Source: Candidatus Pollutiaquabacter sp. (GTDB lineage: Bacteria; Bacteroidota; Bacteroidia; AKYH767-A; 2013-40CM-41-45). From it: a DNA stretch of 64,000 nt. Shown here one piece after another: positions 55,336-64,000 of this stretch. The DNA is taken from assembly GCA_947465495.1 (NCBI GenBank), contig CANIAS010000001.1:62001-126000 (forward strand). The letters run 5' to 3'. Every line of letters begins with the position of its first letter. The first letter of the stretch is position 1. The notes beneath the pieces were generated by a model. The model had not been told where the DNA came from, made no database searches, and saw nothing but the letters and a program-made list of their open reading frames with translations. A program made the position numbers and the translations under genes.

Positions 55336-56595
55336 ATGAACCGGGCATCCCTTATTTTAATTGGATTGTTCTTTCGATCCATTTTATCACCCGCTTCTCC
55401 CGACACGTTGCGCGTGCTTTTTCTAGGTAATAGTTATACCGCGGTAAATAATTTACCTGAAATAATTTCGATATTATCGCAATCCGGCGGCAACGTCTTA
55501 GACTACGACTATAATACACCGGGAGGTTACGCATTTGAAAACCATTCTTACGATACCTCCTCGTTGGCAAAGATTAGTCGAGGTAATTGGGACGTTGTAG
55601 TACTTCAAGATCAAAGTCAACTTCCCACCATTGACTACTACCGATATTCGATGTGTTATCCTGCGGCTGAAAGGCTACGAGATAGTATCCGCCTATACAA
55701 TCCTTGTGCACGTATAATGACATATATGACCTGGGGAAGACGATATGGTGGTCAACAATGCATCAACAACTATTGCAGTCCTGTTTTTGCAGATTTCAAC
55801 CACATGCAGGATTCTTTACAAAGTGCTTATGAAGAAGAATCAGAATTAATAGGCGCCAGTTGTGCACCGGTTGGAGTTGCTTGGAAAGCAGTACTACGTG
55901 ATACTACGATTGTATTACACGCCAGTGATAATAGTCATCCTGCGTTAGCCGGCAGCTATCTAACTGCTTGTGTTTTTTATTCCATGATATGGAGATCGTC
56001 GTGCGTAGGGCTTGCGCCTTACCCTGGAATCGATTCCGCTACTTGTTCCTTGTTCCAATATACCGCCGACTCTGTTGTGTTTCAAAGCGTATCCGACTGG
56101 AACATAAACATCGATCGCCCCGAAGCTGCTTTCACCTATAATTCCGACAATGATAGTGTCTACTTTTCCAACCAGTCGGCTAGTGTGAATGGTTGCACTT
56201 TTCATTGGGACTTCGGTGATGGATACTTTTCAACTGATTTCAATCCAGCGCACCATTATCTATCATCTGGCTATTATACTGTCAGACTTATAGCCACCAT
56301 ATGTGTACAGGTTGATACTTTTACTAGCGTTATACCATTCCATGTATCATCGGTCGATGAACTCGAGTTAAACAGCCGTATTTTCAGCTATCCTAATCCT
56401 ACGCGTGACAGATTTACCATTGAATGCGCCTCTTGTACAAGCGGAGCTGCATATGAGTTATTTGATGCTACTGGTAGAAAAATAGGTACCGGTAACTTTA
56501 CCGAAAAGATACTTCATCTTGACATCTCCAACTTTGAGACTGGAGTTTATACTTTAATAACGATGAAGCATAGAATCATTCTTATAAAACAATAA
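55336..56595 (+). CDS. Secreted SGNH-like hydrolase with PKD and T9SS sorting domains
   Basis: 419 residues. Signal peptide, then an SGNH-hydrolase-like domain (DUF4886 type): the nucleophile Ser in FLGNSYTAVNNL and the Asp/His pair in DNSHPALAGSY are visible. A PKD domain (FHWDFGDGYFS) follows at about 290-340, and a type A sorting domain (SYPNPTRDRF ... RIILIKQ) ends it. Probably an esterase or deacetylase acting on surface or external polysaccharide. It starts 18 bp after the CPBP gene, so it may be on the same transcript. Confidence 0.82.
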   Translation: MNRASLILIGLFFRSILSPASPDTLRVLFLGNSYTAVNNLPEIISILSQSGGNVLDYDYNTPGGYAFENHSYDTSSLAKISRGNWDVVVLQDQSQLPTIDYYRYSMCYPAAERLRDSIRLYNPCARIMTYMTWGRRYGGQQCINNYCSPVFADFNHMQDSLQSAYEEESELIGASCAPVGVAWKAVLRDTTIVLHASDNSHPALAGSYLTACVFYSMIWRSSCVGLAPYPGIDSATCSLFQYTADSVVFQSVSDWNINIDRPEAAFTYNSDNDSVYFSNQSASVNGCTFHWDFGDGYFSTDFNPAHHYLSSGYYTVRLIATICVQVDTFTSVIPFHVSSVDELELNSRIFSYPNPTRDRFTIECASCTSGAAYELFDATGRKIGTGNFTEKILHLDISNFETGVYTLITMKHRIILIKQ

Positions 56596-56637: not shown

Positions 56638-57201
56638 TTAGAAAAATCTCTCAAAAACCCAGTACAATCCGATACAAGCTATAATTACGGAAACTGGCAA
56701 GACTACACGTTCACGATACCAAGGCTCATTTCTCAGTGGCAACCCAATAAAGAAATGTACTAGCGTCAAAATCGTCAATTGTGCTATTTCTACTCCGAAA
56801 TTAAATGAAAAAAGTCCTAGCATAAAATGCTGGGATGGTATTCCGATATTATTGAGTGCTGCCGCAAATCCCATTCCATGAATTATACCAAAAAGCACAA
56901 TTGCCAGCCATCGCCAATTAGTTGCCTTTGTGTAAATAATATTATTGACAGCAGTAAAAACAATAGATACTGCAATCAGTGGTTCAATGAAGGAACAATT
57001 TGTCACAATGATTCCAGCAGCCGTCAGTCCTAATGCCACACTATGCGCCAATGTAAATAAGGTACATTGCATCAACACCAATCTCAGACTGGAAGAAAAG
57101 AAATACAGTGTCAGGATAAACAGCACGTGATCATACCCAAATGGAATCACGTGTGTGAAGCCATACTCTAGATACTGTATCGCTAGCTGTACGTTATCCA
57201 T
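56638..57201 (-). CDS. HupE/UreJ-like membrane protein
   Basis: 187 residues, about six hydrophobic helices. GFTHVIPFGYDHVLFILTLYF, FTLAHSVALGL and IIHGMGFAAAL carry the paired His/Asp/His signature of HupE/UreJ-type proteins, a family linked in other bacteria to nickel, cobalt or copper handling. It has no separate extracytoplasmic domain of its own. Its ATG shares one base with the stop codon of the upstream DUF1566 gene, so it is translationally coupled as the last gene of the 56.6-64 kb operon. Transported ion unknown. Confidence 0.85.
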   Translation of the reverse strand: MDNVQLAIQYLEYGFTHVIPFGYDHVLFILTLYFFSSSLRLVLMQCTLFTLAHSVALGLTAAGIIVTNCSFIEPLIAVSIVFTAVNNIIYTKATNWRWLAIVLFGIIHGMGFAAALNNIGIPSQHFMLGLFSFNFGVEIAQLTILTLVHFFIGLPLRNEPWYRERVVLPVSVIIACIGLYWVFERFF

Positions 57202-58394
57202 TACTCCACCTTTAAGAGTTTACAAACTTCGCGATTGGGCCCGTCAAGTAGTAAGAAATAAATCCCCTTAGGCAATTCCGAGAAATCATGATCTGAAATC
57301 GAACATCCGTCGTAAATAATTTCACCGTTTATGTTCATCAAGTAGCTATGTTGATTTATTAAACTTCCTTGTATCAAAATTCGATCAACAAAAGGATTAG
57401 GGTAAATCATCCGTGAAATGAAGGAAGTGTTTAGCGAATTGACTGACGTAGAAAATGATGTATTACCACGTACCACGAGGATATTGTGTCGTATCGTTTT
57501 GTCATCATACGTGGTGATTCCAAATTGCGTATTAAGATACCATGCCTTTAAAGGCTGATTAGGCAACGAGGTCGAACTCCAGTATTTAGTAGCGCCGACA
57601 ACCTGAAAGATGTTGTTATCCAAGGATGGATTGACTCGAGTCTCATCGTTAATAGATTGAAGCTCCTTGATATTGGGAAGTCGCCAATCATTTTGACCGG
57701 AAATCGTCAATGTGTCAGCATATATCAAAGCCTGTTCCCAGGTAATTGAATCACCATAGGGGATTTTTTGCCATACTAGCTCGGTCAATAAATCGGTAAT
57801 TGTTCCATCTCCATTATCGTTGAAATGTGTAGGCACCGTCACCACGGGGTGTATGTCGCGTACGGCGCGTGCATGAAAACGTTTTATCCCTCCTGCACTA
57901 ATGGTTTCCGTTTTACGGTGATTGCCAATTCCTCCGCCGGCATTGGTCGACCATACTTTCGAAGTATCGTTTGCTTGCAACTCAGAGGTCCACCAATATT
58001 CAGCAGTAGTAACTCGAAAAACAGTCATGTCGAGTGCCGGATTATTGTATTGTTGATTCAGTATGGAATAAGCCTCTTCCGCTGTGGGTAATCGCCAATC
58101 TGTATAGCCATCAAGCGTAAGTGTATCGCAATAGGTAATAGCTGATTCAAACCGCATTTCTCCACCGTCGTTCCGTTCCCACATCAGTCCAGTTATGGTA
58201 TCGGTAACGGTGTAAATGTTATTGACGATGAAATACGGTGTATTGATCATGTAATCATGGTCTTCGCCAAACGTATTGGTAAAACTGGAAAACTGTCCTG
58301 TATCTGGGAGCCGAAGCATCGACTTAACAACTGGCTGCGCGTGAATGATGGAAGATATTATCAGCAATGCAGCCGTGACGTTTTTTCGTATCAT
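57201..58394 (-). CDS. T9SS-secreted protein with two DUF1566 (Lcl C-terminal) domains
   Basis: 397 residues. Signal peptide ending HAQ. Two DUF1566 repeats, each with G/L-W-x, a TYCDTLTLDGYTDWRLP or IYADTLTISGQNDWRLP block, then PTAEEAYSIL or PNIKELQSI; the fold is C-type-lectin-like (FGE/sulfatase-modifying-like). A short type A sorting domain ends it (IYPNPFVDRIL ... CKLLKVE). Probably a surface ligand-binding protein. Separated from the previous gene by 3 bp. Confidence 0.85.
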   Translation of the reverse strand: MIRKNVTAALLIISSIIHAQPVVKSMLRLPDTGQFSSFTNTFGEDHDYMINTPYFIVNNIYTVTDTITGLMWERNDGGEMRFESAITYCDTLTLDGYTDWRLPTAEEAYSILNQQYNNPALDMTVFRVTTAEYWWTSELQANDTSKVWSTNAGGGIGNHRKTETISAGGIKRFHARAVRDIHPVVTVPTHFNDNGDGTITDLLTELVWQKIPYGDSITWEQALIYADTLTISGQNDWRLPNIKELQSINDETRVNPSLDNNIFQVVGATKYWSSTSLPNQPLKAWYLNTQFGITTYDDKTIRHNILVVRGNTSFSTSVNSLNTSFISRMIYPNPFVDRILIQGSLINQHSYLMNINGEIIYDGCSISDHDFSELPKGIYFLLLDGPNREVCKLLKVE

Positions 58395-58397
58395 GAT

Positions 58398-59630
58398 TTA
58401 TTGTATGATGAATTGCTGTCGAAATGAAACACCGTTACCAGTTATTCTCAAGGTATAAATACCCGCAACGATGGATTCGGAAGAAATCTGATCTACAAAA
58501 CCGGATGAATGAAAAACAACTTTCCCAGTGACATCCATCAGTGTAGTCTGATTGATACGTGAAGCTAGCTCTTGTTGCTTCAATTGTATTTTAATAAGCG
58601 GAGCTCCTTCTTGTAAAAACGCCTTGATACCTACTTCCTCTTCAAATTGAACATGTGTCCCAGTTGTAGAAGGCACCGTAAAACGTACTAACACTTCATT
58701 GTCGAGCACAAGGTTGGAACTCCAAATGAATTGAGCATCGTGAACCGGATCATCAAATACATCGGTAAAATTCGTATACGCTGGTTTATTGTTGACTCCA
58801 ACCGTCGTGTTGGAAAAGGTAAAGGCCTGCGGGAAACTGGTATCGTTGAAAGAAGCATCGTACCAGTTGGATGGACGCGGCCAATGTAAACCATAATCAT
58901 TTCCTCCATTGTTGGTGGATGGAGCGGAACAGTTGTTGGACAATCGTAGATTTCCAGATTCCGTCGGACACGTAAGATCGGTAATTGGTGCAGTATAATA
59001 GGTTTGGGCTTTCCAGTTACTATCTGATATAGCGATGACTTGATTGGATGCATCTTTAATCATCATAGCCAATCCTCCATCACCAGCATAATACGTATAC
59101 GTCGCATTCGTCTCATAGCCCAACCCGAGATGCTCCTCCCAGTCTACTAATAATACCGCAACTGTGAATGGACGAAAGGCTCTAAATCGTACGATGGAAG
59201 AATTGAAAGGAGTGTAAGGAACATTGTCTTTCCCGACAGGAACACCATTCACATACATTTCAAAGTAATTATCCGCAAAAACAAATGCTGTATAAACATC
59301 GCCTCCAGCATCAACGGTAACAATATCGTTACCGGAAAGTGCTGACACTGCTGCTGCAGTAGTTGCATAGGTGGCCCCGACGCAACTATTGTAAAGATCA
59401 GATGATGATGGGAAAGTTGGATCTGAAAAACTAACTGCTGCCGGTAATGGCCACACACTATTATCGGTTGCGGTAATTGATCCAAGGTTCGTTATGCGAC
59501 CCGTTGGACAGGTATATAGGTTTAGCACCGTTGTATCCCCAGACCCTTGTGTAACAGAACCAGTTCCGTTGTACTGAGCCATCACCGATACAGTCAGAAA
59601 AGATAAATAGAACGTCAGGCCATTCTTCAT
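58398..59630 (-). CDS. T9SS-secreted protein with galactose-binding-like (lectin-like) domains, unknown function
   Basis: 410 residues, signal peptide ending VMAQ. Segment FEMYVNGVPVGKD, then GLAMMIKDASNQVIAISDSNWKAQ resembles the sugar-binding jelly rolls found in rhamnosidases and beta-galactosidases. Near the end IWSSNLVLDNEVLVRFTVP is a distinctive motif. The end has sorting-domain features (TLMDVTGKVVFHS, AGIYTLRI ... QQFIIQ) but lacks a clear PNP motif. No catalytic residues found. Two bases separate it from the YHYH gene. Confidence 0.72.
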   Translation of the reverse strand: MKNGLTFYLSFLTVSVMAQYNGTGSVTQGSGDTTVLNLYTCPTGRITNLGSITATDNSVWPLPAAVSFSDPTFPSSSDLYNSCVGATYATTAAAVSALSGNDIVTVDAGGDVYTAFVFADNYFEMYVNGVPVGKDNVPYTPFNSSIVRFRAFRPFTVAVLLVDWEEHLGLGYETNATYTYYAGDGGLAMMIKDASNQVIAISDSNWKAQTYYTAPITDLTCPTESGNLRLSNNCSAPSTNNGGNDYGLHWPRPSNWYDASFNDTSFPQAFTFSNTTVGVNNKPAYTNFTDVFDDPVHDAQFIWSSNLVLDNEVLVRFTVPSTTGTHVQFEEEVGIKAFLQEGAPLIKIQLKQQELASRINQTTLMDVTGKVVFHSSGFVDQISSESIVAGIYTLRITGNGVSFRQQFIIQ

Positions 59631-59632
59631 GA

Positions 59633-61261
59633 TTATTGTACAATAAGTTTGATAGATTCGTTTGAAGTACCTTTATTAATAACCACCCAATAATTGCCTG
59701 CCGACCAACCATTGACTATTATAGGACGTTTAGCATCTGTTGAGCTTACCATCAAACTACCTCGAACATCATAGACCGATATTTTCTCAATGGCATTCCA
59801 CAAGCCAGCATCTTTTACACCAATTTGAAAATACTCCTTAGCAGGATTCGGGTAAAGAAATATGGTAGATTGAGCAGCGGGAATCGTCTGAACTTCTGTA
59901 GGCACAGTACATTGCGAAAACCCGTTGTAATTTTGTGTAGTAGGTATTCCATTTCCTGTTGTATAAAAATTAAATGTGTAAAGTCCGTTTGAAGTCCAGC
60001 TGTATTCAATCGAATCCGTCTGTCCGCTCAATGCATAACTGACGGTGTATCCGTTGTTGCTCGGATTCGGATGACAATCAGTGATTACAGCACCGTTTAG
60101 TGGTGTCAATGCTGGACGAACAGGAGTGGCGCGTGATTGTGGAATAATCTGTAGAGTTGTGTCTTCCGTAACACGACCAACCATGTAACCGATCATGTAA
60201 GGAGCCGCTGAACTTCCATGATAATGATATATACCATTGGCTCCAAAATGTCCGTGGTTAGTATCCAGCGGTAGTACTGGAATTCCGTCTGGCTCTGTAT
60301 TCCCATACACAGCGAAGCCGTCCAATCCGAATGCTACCGGCGAAGTGGCTGAGATATAATTATACAGGTGTAACGGTGCAATGTGATAATGGTAGTCGTC
60401 AGCACGACCGCAATGTCCACCCCAATTATCCAGCTGTCCTGTCAAAAGTGCATCCACGCCTGTATTCGTATAAGGATTAAAAATTGGTATGCCATTAACG
60501 GCAACCGCTATAGCACCACGCAAAAAATGAGATGGGCCTACTGGCACCGGAGTGGTGGCTAATACCGGATTAAGTGGAATACTCCAGGCATTATTGCCGA
60601 TATAACATTGAGGAATGGGGACCTGTTGTTGCCAAGCGGTAATACCCGTCATCATAGAATGTGTTGTAGGAATTCCTTTCGACTCGACCCGAAAATACGT
60701 TGTATCCCAAAAGGTATTAATCGATGGCTTGAAATAAGCAAAAGCTGAATCCATCCATAATGGATCTGTAGTCGTGCTGGCCAATCTCAGTGCGTTTTTA
60801 TTAAATGAAACTAGACTTAACACAAGTCCGGTAAACAAGACTGGAGCCATGTATTTTCGTTTAGTACGATCCTTCAAATTGAACGTAATGATCCCTAAGG
60901 TTATTAATAACCCAATTGCGATGAAATAGGGAACACTATTCGTGGTAGTTGAAGAATCGTTTTGAGCAACCGGGTTTCTTGAAATAGGTTTTACCTGATT
61001 GAAGGCTTCTATGCGTGCAATCTTTTCGCTAAGAAACCGCTGATCGGCGGTCGAGAATTGATTCAGCGAAAAGTGATGCATGGCTGATGCTGCATCCTCA
61101 ATGTAAACCTGCCCATCTTTGTAGGAATAAAAGGAGCCTTCTAACGATTTTGTTCGATCTGTGAAATGCCACGTATGCAGAATAACACGTTCATAGTTGA
61201 TGTCGTGAGCTTGTGTGATGGTTGCTATTAAGAAGAATAGCGAAAGGAATGTCTTTTTCAT
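59633..61261 (-). CDS. YHYH-domain T9SS protein with SHD1-like N-terminal part and a membrane helix
   Basis: 542 residues. The signal peptide would end TQA, leaving a mature N-terminus His-Asp. The next 60 residues (HTWHFTDRTKSLEGSFYSY, then LNQFSTADQRFL) resemble an SHD1/SLA1-homology domain. A hydrophobic segment follows at about 110-130 and another at 140-155. The YHYH domain is unmistakable: DDYHYHIAPL, then NTEPDG and NGIYHYHG. A type A sorting domain ends the protein (LYPNPAKEYF ... IKLIVQ). The His clusters suggest metal binding, but no function of YHYH proteins is established. An internal membrane helix with a T9SS tail is odd. Confidence 0.82.
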   Translation of the reverse strand: MKKTFLSLFFLIATITQAHDINYERVILHTWHFTDRTKSLEGSFYSYKDGQVYIEDAASAMHHFSLNQFSTADQRFLSEKIARIEAFNQVKPISRNPVAQNDSSTTTNSVPYFIAIGLLITLGIITFNLKDRTKRKYMAPVLFTGLVLSLVSFNKNALRLASTTTDPLWMDSAFAYFKPSINTFWDTTYFRVESKGIPTTHSMMTGITAWQQQVPIPQCYIGNNAWSIPLNPVLATTPVPVGPSHFLRGAIAVAVNGIPIFNPYTNTGVDALLTGQLDNWGGHCGRADDYHYHIAPLHLYNYISATSPVAFGLDGFAVYGNTEPDGIPVLPLDTNHGHFGANGIYHYHGSSAAPYMIGYMVGRVTEDTTLQIIPQSRATPVRPALTPLNGAVITDCHPNPSNNGYTVSYALSGQTDSIEYSWTSNGLYTFNFYTTGNGIPTTQNYNGFSQCTVPTEVQTIPAAQSTIFLYPNPAKEYFQIGVKDAGLWNAIEKISVYDVRGSLMVSSTDAKRPIIVNGWSAGNYWVVINKGTSNESIKLIVQ

Positions 61262-61263
61262 GG

Positions 61264-62982
61264 TTATTTTTTAATACGTATTATCTTACCTCCGCGAAAT
61301 GCACCTGCATCGTCGGTTATGGTATATTGGTAAGTGCCTTGTGGCGATGAAATTCCAGCATCATTCGTACCATCCCAATACATCCGAAAACTTCCGACAT
61401 TTACTTTTCTATGATCAAGTAGCGTACGTACAAGCTTACCATTCATATCAAAAACCGAGATGGTGATAAAATTCGGTTGAAGCACTTCAAATTCAATGCT
61501 GGCATTGTCCGAAAATGGATTTGGATAAACAATTTCGTCGGAGTAGTTGGTGTTCCAGAGAATTGGGACAACGGCTAAACTAGAATCATAGCAATTCACA
61601 GATCCAATATAATAGGAAGCCGATATGTCTTTGTTATGACGCGTTGCATTTTCGTCGGCTGCTTTATAAGCCCTTACATATTCAACAAGTACTCCGTTAG
61701 GGTCAACCGACACACGTAGATGTCCTGCACTGGGGATGAATTGTCCTTGTGTGTACCCGTAAGAGGCTGCCAAGTTTACATTCGAAAAGTTCGGATGTCC
61801 CGGTTGCTGGACTTCCTGATAGATTAAACAATCTTTCTCTTGCTTGCCAAAAAAATGATCATGTCCATGAAAGAAAATAGATACCCGGTTTTCAGTAAGC
61901 AATTCTTTAATTGGTTTGTACCATCCTGGGCGATTGGCAGCAAATCCAGGAGTACCATCCAAATTATTTCCACCCCATTCATAGAGGTCCGCAAACTCAA
62001 TTCCTCCACGACCCTCAGGATCTCCTCCCACCAATTGATGTGCGAAGACAAATTTGAATCGTGCAGAACTATTTTGTAACGTTGATTTTAGCCATTCATA
62101 TTGCACGCGTCCAAGCGTCCAATTCCAGCCTGTCAGCGAATCTGGTTTCTGTTGGGTATACCAGTATGGATCCAGGACGATGAATAAAGCATCGCCCCAT
62201 TGCCACGTGTAATAATTTTCACGCTGACCAACAAACGGGTGAACAATCGTGTCGCCATGGTAAAAATTATCCGGATACGGATTTAGAAAATACTTCTTAC
62301 GGTCTTCTGTATCCCAAACCGCAAAATTATTGGGCGTGCCATTCAAATTCCAGCCAGCCTCACCCTCATGATTACCAAGTGTCATAAATAAGGGAACGGA
62401 ATGACATACTTTTTCATAATAGGAGCGCATTAATCGTGTACGATAAGTGACCGTATCCCGAGGTATTCTATTGGTACTATCCTTCATTTTATCAGTCATC
62501 ATGACATCACCAAGATCAATCATAAAATCGGGGGCATCTTCCAATTCATTCTGTAGACACCTGTTATAAATTGCAGTATCCGTCTGTTCATCCATGTGTG
62601 GATCCGCTTGAATGACGAACGTGAATGGAGATAAAGCGGGGCGCAGTGTTTGGAAAACAAACTCCGGACGAAACTGTATGCTTCCGTTAGGGTAGCGGTA
62701 GTTAACACGATAATAATACTTTGTGTCCGCTGTAAGATTATCTATTATAATTTCTGCCGGTTCTTCGCCGGCAAAGGTTTGCCAATTTGTTTGTCCAGTA
62801 TAGCTGCCACTCGTTGTTCCATATTGCACACGAACCTGAATGGAGTCCGCAAAAACCAACTGGAGTGTTACACTATGATTGGTTGGACGACCCAATAACT
62901 CTGTATGCAAAATGGTCTGGGCATGGGTCGTGAAGAAGGATGCGAAAAACAGGATTAGTAAGCACTTTAAAAAAAACTTCAT
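61264..62982 (-). CDS. Secreted metallophosphoesterase with FN3-like N-domain and FlgD-type C-terminal Ig domain
   Basis: 572 residues. Signal peptide ending HAQ. An N-terminal FN3/purple-acid-phosphatase-like domain (VQYGTTSGSYTGQTNW, YYYRVNYRYPNG), then a calcineurin-like phosphoesterase with QADPHMDE, DLGDVMM, LGNHEGEAGW, FAHQ and HGHDHFF. The tail combines a sorting-domain motif (VYPNPFSDNASIEF) with a FlgD-type Ig end (WDGTNDAGISSPQGTYQYTI), ending IIRIKK. All five metal-binding motifs are present. A close paralogue lies directly upstream in the same operon. Confidence 0.9.
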   Translation of the reverse strand: MKFFLKCLLILFFASFFTTHAQTILHTELLGRPTNHSVTLQLVFADSIQVRVQYGTTSGSYTGQTNWQTFAGEEPAEIIIDNLTADTKYYYRVNYRYPNGSIQFRPEFVFQTLRPALSPFTFVIQADPHMDEQTDTAIYNRCLQNELEDAPDFMIDLGDVMMTDKMKDSTNRIPRDTVTYRTRLMRSYYEKVCHSVPLFMTLGNHEGEAGWNLNGTPNNFAVWDTEDRKKYFLNPYPDNFYHGDTIVHPFVGQRENYYTWQWGDALFIVLDPYWYTQQKPDSLTGWNWTLGRVQYEWLKSTLQNSSARFKFVFAHQLVGGDPEGRGGIEFADLYEWGGNNLDGTPGFAANRPGWYKPIKELLTENRVSIFFHGHDHFFGKQEKDCLIYQEVQQPGHPNFSNVNLAASYGYTQGQFIPSAGHLRVSVDPNGVLVEYVRAYKAADENATRHNKDISASYYIGSVNCYDSSLAVVPILWNTNYSDEIVYPNPFSDNASIEFEVLQPNFITISVFDMNGKLVRTLLDHRKVNVGSFRMYWDGTNDAGISSPQGTYQYTITDDAGAFRGGKIIRIKK

Positions 62983-63004
62983 GCGCTTTTGAGATGCGAA
63001 TTAA

Positions 63005-64000
63005 TTAGTGCTGTACGATGAATTTTTTTGCGGTATGCATATCGGATGAATCGATGAGTAGAAAATACATGCCGTTTTTGAGTTCTGCTACATTTAGGAG
63101 CGTGGATTCGGAAACAACTACACACTGACCCATTGCATTAAAAATACGGGCTTCTTTTATGCTTTTACCTGGTGGGGATATTACGTGAAGTCGGTCGGAA
63201 GCCGGAACTGGATACAGCCGGTATAAATTTGCTGCATCATTTACAGAAATGTCGTTTGTTGCACAACTGCCTAACGTGTAACTAAAACCAATTTCACGAT
63301 TTTGATGCAGCCCACCTACCGTATCAACAGGAAGATAGGCGCGGACAAAATCAACGGTGACACATTGTGGGGTCACATTGACCCGTATGTGTCCGGTACC
63401 ACCAATGGTATCGGAAGTATATGCATCGGCATTCGCCAACATACCAATTTCATAGGTGGAATCGGAAGGCATTGGCACTTCCTGGTAAGTTACGCCATCC
63501 AATGTTTCGTGAGCAAACAAATGATCGTGCCCTTGGAAGAAGACGTTTACACCGGCATTGACAAACAATTGATGAATTGGAGCTGCCCAACCCGGACGTT
63601 CGTTAGGAAAATCATAGGTGGTATGATTGGAATTATATCCTCCCCATTCAAATTCGACAGCATTGGTGATGCCTCCTCGGCCTTGTCCGTTAATGTGATG
63701 CGCGAAAACAAACTTATATTGTGAAGCGCTGGTATCCAGCACCGCTTTTAACCAATCGTACTGCGGCTGACCGAGCGACCAGCTCCACTTTTGAGGCTTG
63801 GCGGAGGTATCACATTGATCTCGATAGACATCAAGCACTACGAACAAGGCATTTCCCCAAGTCCAGGCATAATAATTTTCAGGCGTTCCGATTCCAAAGG
63901 GTTCCACGGTAGTATTTCCACTGTAGAAATTGCTAGGTGAAGGATTCGGAAAATACTTCTTGCGTGCTTGCGTACCCCAGGCTGCCAAATTGTTGGGCGG
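63005..64000 (-). CDS. Secreted metallophosphoesterase, C-terminal part (truncated by window edge)
   Basis: Paralogue of the following gene; 331 residues visible and open to the right edge. The later phosphoesterase motifs are present (KFVFAHHINGQGRGG, FFQGHDHLFAH; the last usually reads GHxH and does so here). The sorting domain is of the plain type A form (LYPVPASDRLHV ... AKKFIVQH), unlike the FlgD-type end of the paralogue. The N-terminal metal motifs lie outside the window. 22 bp separate it from the next gene, so it belongs to the same operon. Confidence 0.85.
   Translation of the reverse strand, partial: PPNNLAAWGTQARKKYFPNPSPSNFYSGNTTVEPFGIGTPENYYAWTWGNALFVVLDVYRDQCDTSAKPQKWSWSLGQPQYDWLKAVLDTSASQYKFVFAHHINGQGRGGITNAVEFEWGGYNSNHTTYDFPNERPGWAAPIHQLFVNAGVNVFFQGHDHLFAHETLDGVTYQEVPMPSDSTYEIGMLANADAYTSDTIGGTGHIRVNVTPQCVTVDFVRAYLPVDTVGGLHQNREIGFSYTLGSCATNDISVNDAANLYRLYPVPASDRLHVISPPGKSIKEARIFNAMGQCVVVSESTLLNVAELKNGMYFLLIDSSDMHTAKKFIVQH

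Follow-up and report, generated by a model that had tools for sequence, protein, structure and literature searches.

A conserved six-gene operon of Bacteroidota with a histidine-tipped YHYH protein and a HupE/UreJ-type permease: a candidate system for metal capture

Why should two surface phosphoesterases, a YHYH protein, a lectin-like protein, a DUF1566 protein and a membrane permease be encoded in one tightly packed operon? The question is raised by a 64,000-nucleotide stretch of DNA from Candidatus Pollutiaquabacter sp. (contig CANIAS010000001.1, positions 62,001 to 126,000; hereafter the window), in which six minus-strand genes follow one another in the order PPE1-PPE2-YHYH-LEC-DUF1566-HUPE with intergenic gaps of 22, 2, 2, 3 and -1 base pairs. 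An earlier reading of this DNA (the original prediction) had described the same genes and gaps and proposed one surface machine, perhaps for phosphate and metal recovery. Our analysis bears out the gene arrangement and supports the overall reading in part: the conserved unit and the link to metal stand, phosphate recovery stays conjectural, the single surface machine is doubtful, and the histidine tip, with its complementarity to the permease, both described below, had been missed. The best explanation overall, which we advance tentatively, is that the operon captures a transition metal, most likely copper, and hands it over to the permease. That it handles metal is highly probable, and copper is the somewhat favored candidate; hand-over from the YHYH protein to the permease in trans has slightly less than an even chance. 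We infer the identity of the metal, its direction of travel, the contact between YHYH protein and permease, and the role of the surface proteins. The features on which the argument turns, including a predicted sorting tail for the type IX secretion system (T9SS), are these:

59633..61261, minus strand: long-form YHYH protein, 542 residues, with signal peptide, His1 domain, membrane hairpin, YHYH domain and T9SS tail
61208..61261, minus strand: YHYH protein, signal peptide predicted from sequence, residues 1-18, ending T-Q-A
60992..61207, minus strand: YHYH protein, mature N-terminal domain, residues 19-90, starting with the invariant His19; nearest fold Sla1 SHD1
60779..60934, minus strand: YHYH protein, two-helix membrane hairpin, residues 110-161
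60383..60415, minus strand: YHYH protein, first histidine triad, H283-x7-H291-x-H293, containing the first YHYH motif
60218..60250, minus strand: YHYH protein, second histidine triad, H338-x7-H346-x-H348, containing the second YHYH motif
59636..59857, minus strand: YHYH protein, T9SS sorting tail, residues 469-542
56638..57201, minus strand: HupE/UreJ_2 permease (HUPE), 187 residues, without signal peptide or His1 tip

The case for metal handling begins with the YHYH protein, which matches PF14240 at 51 bits against a Pfam cut-off of 25. We surveyed its relatives by scanning named genomes and retained the best 80 of 560; almost all are Bacteroidota metagenome assemblies, some of them with pond or lake names. 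In all 75 intact copies, a signal peptide with a predicted cleavage site is followed by a histidine at the mature N-terminus (His1); the script's tally of 76/76 includes one broken copy, L117, and five frames cut by contig ends were excluded before counting. The residue before His1 is alanine in 57 of 76, serine in 13, proline in 3, threonine in 2 and glycine in 1. Across the 56 sequences of alignment A3, H19 is invariant, as are H283, H291, H293, H338, H346 and H348, which form two equally spaced H-x7-H-x-H triads, and several aspartates. Two YHYH motifs, lying within these duplicated triads, are present in 81/81 copies. Because the 80 named loci were found partly via the first motif, its conservation there is partly by construction; that of the second motif and of His1 is not. 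Together with the copper- and metal-linked neighbors described below, the invariant mature histidine and the duplicated triads strongly support the metal handling that had been proposed.

In an AlphaFold model (predicted local distance difference test score 86.9), a small domain at the N-terminus and a two-helix hairpin accompany the YHYH domain, which is rich in beta structure. The N-terminal domain comprises four strands and a helix, and its nearest structure by three measures, none decisive by itself, is Sla1 SHD1 (Z 7.7, 59 residues aligned, 2.5 Å). Fold searches with the YHYH domain proper gave no confident match, and Foldseek returned nothing under E 0.001 for the YHYH or the LEC model. 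The hairpin was found in 72/73 copies with a looser hydrophobicity cut applied to the right segment, and as two helices in 38/73 with a stricter one; the sorting tail carries a P-N-P-type motif in 63/73.

The histidine that the YHYH protein is predicted to expose is missing from the permease beside it. The last gene had been called HupE/UreJ-like, and its product indeed matches PF13795 HupE_UreJ_2 at 136.3 bits (Pfam cut-off 24.5) and has no signal peptide. HUPE proteins of the operon begin a few residues ahead of their first membrane helix, and none of 30 (29 named loci plus the window) has a His1 tip; L251, a copy from the genome sample, was flagged for His1, but the hit lies two residues from the start of its frame and is an artefact. 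No fusion of His1 and permease in one chain was seen in the operon loci. By comparison, 24 of 26 close non-operon permeases (23 by script, L224 by eye; the exceptions are L238 and L239) have a signal peptide followed by histidine, in most about a dozen residues before the first helix, with tips such as HTINYQ, HAINYD and HTMSYD. The YHYH tips resemble these (HDINYE in the window, HTINYD elsewhere), a likeness that is loose: H[TD][ILV]NY occurs in 17/76 YHYH proteins versus 4/24 permeases. Permease matches occur in 155/395 genomes of the class, and the His1 test used part of them, namely 26 close and 61 distant copies, with duplicate loci excluded. Within the 30 operon permeases, H17, D24, H25, H53 and H108 are each present in at least 95%, as is a membrane cysteine, C46, which occurs in none of the 8 non-operon permeases shown.

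A histidine-tipped domain that feeds such a permease has a precedent, described in PMC12537917. There, His1 domains fused to HupE/UreJ-2, the "anglerases" Ang-1 and Ang-2, bind copper and nickel (copper at ~60-75 nM) in a capture-and-feed model, and metallophosphatases are frequent in Ang-2 neighborhoods. The operon shares with anglerases the mature N-terminal histidine after a signal peptide, the HupE/UreJ_2 permease and, as with Ang-2, the nearby metallophosphatases. It differs in that its His1 domain sits on a separate YHYH protein with a hairpin of its own, that its partners carry T9SS tails and that it belongs to Bacteroidota; moreover, its modeled N-terminal domain resembles SHD1, seemingly in contrast to the large Ig-like beta-sandwich described for the anglerases. 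The term YHYH occurs 0 times in that text as available. HupE/UreJ_2 permeases that stand alone and have, after a signal peptide, a short His1 tail just ahead of the first membrane helix (L162-L169, L202, L209-L240) look like a pared-down relation of the anglerases.

A second arrangement of this kind involves DUF6702 (PF20420), which the same paper describes as a His1 metal binder or sequesterase. Among 29 loci with flanking sequence (L176-L204, for the most part distant permeases), 11 have a DUF6702-like gene next to the permease, three of these genes being Pfam-confirmed. These genes lie within ~1 kb (L176, L178, L179, L181, L182, L183, L186, L187, L188, L189 and L197), stand beside His1-less permeases and encode a signal peptide followed by an HPFYVS-type tip; the pairing is not mentioned in the available text of PMC12537917. 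Like the YHYH protein, DUF6702 would be a separately encoded His1 protein adjoining a His1-less permease, and it differs in having another domain, neither YHYH nor hairpin, and a place outside the operon. Pfam found no DUF6702 among the six operon proteins, and the operon loci contain no DUF6702-like frame. Given the DUF6702 loci besides the YHYH operon, at least two cases are apparent in which a separate His1 protein is paired with a permease that lacks His1. In the literature covered, we found no earlier description of this split between tip and permease, which is a variant on the known anglerase theme.

In the mechanism that we propose, the surface phosphoesterases, LEC and DUF1566 proteins would act outside the cell, where they would bind glycans and either release phosphate esters or make use of them. 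The YHYH protein would be exported by Sec, and removal of its signal peptide would expose the histidine as a new amino end. His1 and the N-terminal domain could then catch metal freed by the surface proteins or present in the envelope, as a "split anglerase". The hairpin would keep the protein beside the HupE/UreJ-2 permease, and this permease, lacking the His1 tip that its close relatives carry, would receive the metal in trans and take it in. The two histidine triads may bind metal at a second site, possibly a dinuclear one, where the ion is stored or its state altered. Copper is favored because of the copper-linked neighbors, the known His1 proteins and the fact that neither NiFe hydrogenase nor urease was found in the genome; nickel for either enzyme was rejected on the last ground.

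It is conceivable, if doubtful, that long YHYH proteins are a new envelope metalloprotein family serving as the separate tip of His1-less HupE/UreJ-2 permeases, and that split capture, with the tip supplied by YHYH, DUF6702 or the permease itself, is general in Bacteroidota metal uptake and is here coupled with phosphoesterases and glycan-binding proteins outside the cell. Copper uptake in Bacteroidota is, to our knowledge, poorly known. Since the conserved YHYH protein has an invariant mature histidine, plus six more invariant histidines at even spacing, and is encoded with a permease that lacks the former, a change of His19 alone could test the mechanism. The obscure YHYH, DUF1566 and HupE/UreJ_2 families also gain a common setting in freshwater bacteria that can be tested.

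Several observations weigh against capture with hand-over. The YHYH protein combines a signal peptide with both a membrane hairpin and a T9SS tail, which is a puzzle, as hairpin and tail imply different locations; as predicted from sequence, the hairpin argues against outer-membrane export of this protein. Given a permease of a type found in the inner membrane and a YHYH protein with both hairpin and sorting tail, the proposed "one surface machine" is doubtful. What weighs most heavily against the mechanism is that the permease is in the run at only 30/80 loci, and a congener, G008 (92% complete), has the operon and zero PF13795 matches genome-wide; the YHYH protein must therefore have a role of its own. 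Copper-linked neighbors occur at a minority of loci and not beside the window's operon, Metal_resist is absent from the window's genome, and B12-binding proteins are encoded there, which makes cobalt a possible metal. Finally, His1 is absent in 57/61 distant, short permeases. The idea that all non-operon HupE/UreJ_2 proteins carry it was thus ruled out, and the contrast holds only in the close subfamily; because only some of these distant permeases have a known His1 neighbor, a His1-less permease alone is weak evidence. In a permease tree (L224 absent), the operon and His1 groups stand apart, with two changes, and loss of the tip is not settled against gain.

Whatever its function, the gene set behaves as a unit. 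The gene upstream of PPE1 is divergent and 502 bp away, and the operon therefore consists of six genes; PPE1, cut by the window's end, is a complete 547-residue gene in contig C1 (L003:9005-10648). With a query lacking the sorting tail, the long YHYH protein was found in 6/42 genomes of the order. It matches in 15/395 genomes of the class (rows under E 1e-70), out of 36 matching overall, the others being short-type. In 20 neighborhoods, at least one of five partner families adjoins YHYH in 18/18 long-form and 0/2 short-form loci. At the 80 loci, the same-strand run with YHYH includes DUF1566 in 65, PPE2 in 37, PPE1 in 35, HUPE in 30 and LEC in 28. At least two families are present in 31/36 runs not cut by contig ends, the other 44 loci having been set aside for this count because a contig end cuts the run. 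PF13795 occurs in 5/6 genomes of the order with YHYH versus 8/36 without (p 0.007), and the set recurs in other genera and families at ~50-70% protein identity. As far as sequence can tell, the six genes form a genuine and complete operon, which is conserved and yet modular in make-up, YHYH and DUF1566 being its core. The original prediction had named scattering of these genes in relatives as one half of what would speak against it; they are not scattered, and on gene order the single unit holds. Its remark that no description of this combination was known also agrees with our search, which found no published account in the literature covered.

Recurring neighbor clusters at the 80 loci, with families assigned from cluster representatives, were compared with the in-run rate of the remaining neighbors (92/563). 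The same run holds Metal_resist in 16/18 cases, sulfatase in 16/17, extracytoplasmic function (ECF) sigma factor in 11/16, thioredoxin-like in 10/11, a CueO-like multicopper oxidase in 8/9, a 100-residue membrane protein in 7/7, a second YHYH in 5/8, MbnH-like in 4/7 and MbnP in 4/5. The clusters were picked for recurrence, so their p values (3.7e-12 to 0.016) serve only as description. The sulfatases lie beside the operon at 14 loci (L075, L079, L083, L089, L102, L104, L114, L118, L119, L121, L126, L128, L138 and L147) and carry a T9SS tail in those scanned.

The remaining four genes bear on the phosphate recovery that had been predicted:

63005..64000, minus strand: PPE1, secreted metallophosphoesterase with T9SS tail, part of the 547-residue gene that runs past the window
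61264..62982, minus strand: PPE2, secreted metallophosphoesterase of 572 residues, with Metallophos, FlgD-type Ig domain and T9SS tail
58398..59630, minus strand: LEC, secreted lectin-like protein of 410 residues, with a jelly-roll model
57201..58394, minus strand: DUF1566/Lcl_C protein of 397 residues, with two domain copies

Pfam gives Metallophos 37.3 bits for PPE2, accompanied by a purple-acid-phosphatase-like N-domain that scores under its cut-off, and matches Lcl_C (DUF1566) as two stretches. The LEC model comes nearest to a fungal lectin, that of Pleurotus (Z 7.9, 3.4 Å, 123 aligned), and to the sugar-binding domains of GH78, here a rhamnosidase (Z 7.9, 3.5 Å, 127 aligned), with a Foldseek E of only 0.04; LEC is a candidate CBM67-like lectin. 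Searches of PDB sequences with LEC and DUF1566 gave nothing useful. The claim that all or most of the secreted proteins have sorting domains stands for PPE1, PPE2 and the YHYH protein, whose T9SS tails are clear and exceed the TIGR04183 cut-off. It is marginal for LEC (25.1 against 23 in NCBIfam, yet 18.1 against 27 in Pfam), and it fails for the DUF1566 protein, which falls below both (20.9 against 23; 26.2 against 27). The T9SS translocon protein SprA is encoded in the genome.

These proteins could instead scavenge phosphate or sulfate esters: the phosphoesterases, with a sulfatase in some relatives, would act on bound organic matter held by LEC and DUF1566, with the YHYH protein and permease doing no more than supplying the metal cofactor. 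Loose patterns for metallophosphoesterase-type motifs (D-x-H, GD...D, GNH[E/D], GH-x-H) are retained in 33/33 PPE1 and 35/35 PPE2 copies, and the sulfatase runs at the 14 loci and the lectin-like folds fit the same scheme. However, at loci chosen by YHYH, the phosphoesterases belong to the run at only 35 (PPE1) and 37 (PPE2) of 80 against 65/80 for the YHYH and DUF1566 core pair, and scavenging leaves His1 and the copper-linked neighbors unexplained. We consider it unlikely. Because fewer than half of the loci have the phosphoesterases in the run, we set a phosphate-only reading lower, and phosphate recovery as predicted is not borne out.

Alternatively, the YHYH protein may itself be a metal-dependent enzyme, either a hydrolase or a copper oxidase, whose targets are glycans or the cell surface, with the permease a loosely linked accessory. 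Its two invariant triads and several invariant aspartates fit this, the permease is often missing, and PMC7824862 predicts that YHYH domains of phages have a Zn site and act as hydrolases. The long form, however, is unlike those phage and short PF14240 proteins: it shares their YHYH domain and adds a His1 domain, a hairpin and two complete triads. A His1 domain and a membrane hairpin would be unusual in a secreted hydrolase, and the fold searches matched no known enzyme, which together make this explanation improbable. Elsewhere, as far as the available text of each goes, phage YHYH domains are grouped with carbohydrate-binding phage proteins (PMC7029224), and YHYH is listed among diatom families (PMC11992049).

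The third alternative, metal defense, has little likelihood. Under it, an ECF sigma system would control envelope proteins that sequester or oxidize copper or nickel in excess, and the CueO-like oxidase, Metal_resist/LTXXQ, ECF sigma factor and small membrane protein that share the run in relatives might suggest as much. Such neighbors, however, are not beside the window's operon, its genome has no Metal_resist, and HupE/UreJ members are described as uptake permeases in PMC12537917. The ECF sigma, small membrane protein and Metal_resist/LTXXQ genes stand upstream of the operon in L087, L106, L111, L120, L130, L132 and others; the set is likely a metal-responsive regulator that the window's genome lacks. 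This sigma-factor trio may resemble cnr-type metal sensing.

That unrelated secreted proteins without a common function are neighbors by chance is very improbable and, as regards gene order, refuted: T9SS-tailed genes are common in the genome, with several more in or near the window, but the adjacency holds in 18/18 long-form loci, and LEC (12/395 genomes) and long YHYH (15/395) occur together in 10 genomes (Fisher p 8.5e-15).

A second YHYH gene of the same genome (contig C7, L004:7119-10287) has a T9SS tail, lacks His1 and is followed by MbnH-like di-heme and MbnP genes; in some relatives this trio adjoins the operon. It lies outside the six genes and recalls the CorA/MopE/MbnP proteins with MbnH-type di-heme partners: in PMC3912023, CorA binds copper with kynurenine, and a di-heme peroxidase relative is co-transcribed. 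A shorter operon relative at L068:3-4825 has a YHYH protein without the hairpin, and its adjacent gene appears by eye to contain EF-hand-like and PEBP-like stretches. In the window, the convergent neighbor of the operon (55336-56595, plus strand), which lies outside it, encodes a DUF4886 protein with a PKD domain and a T9SS tail.

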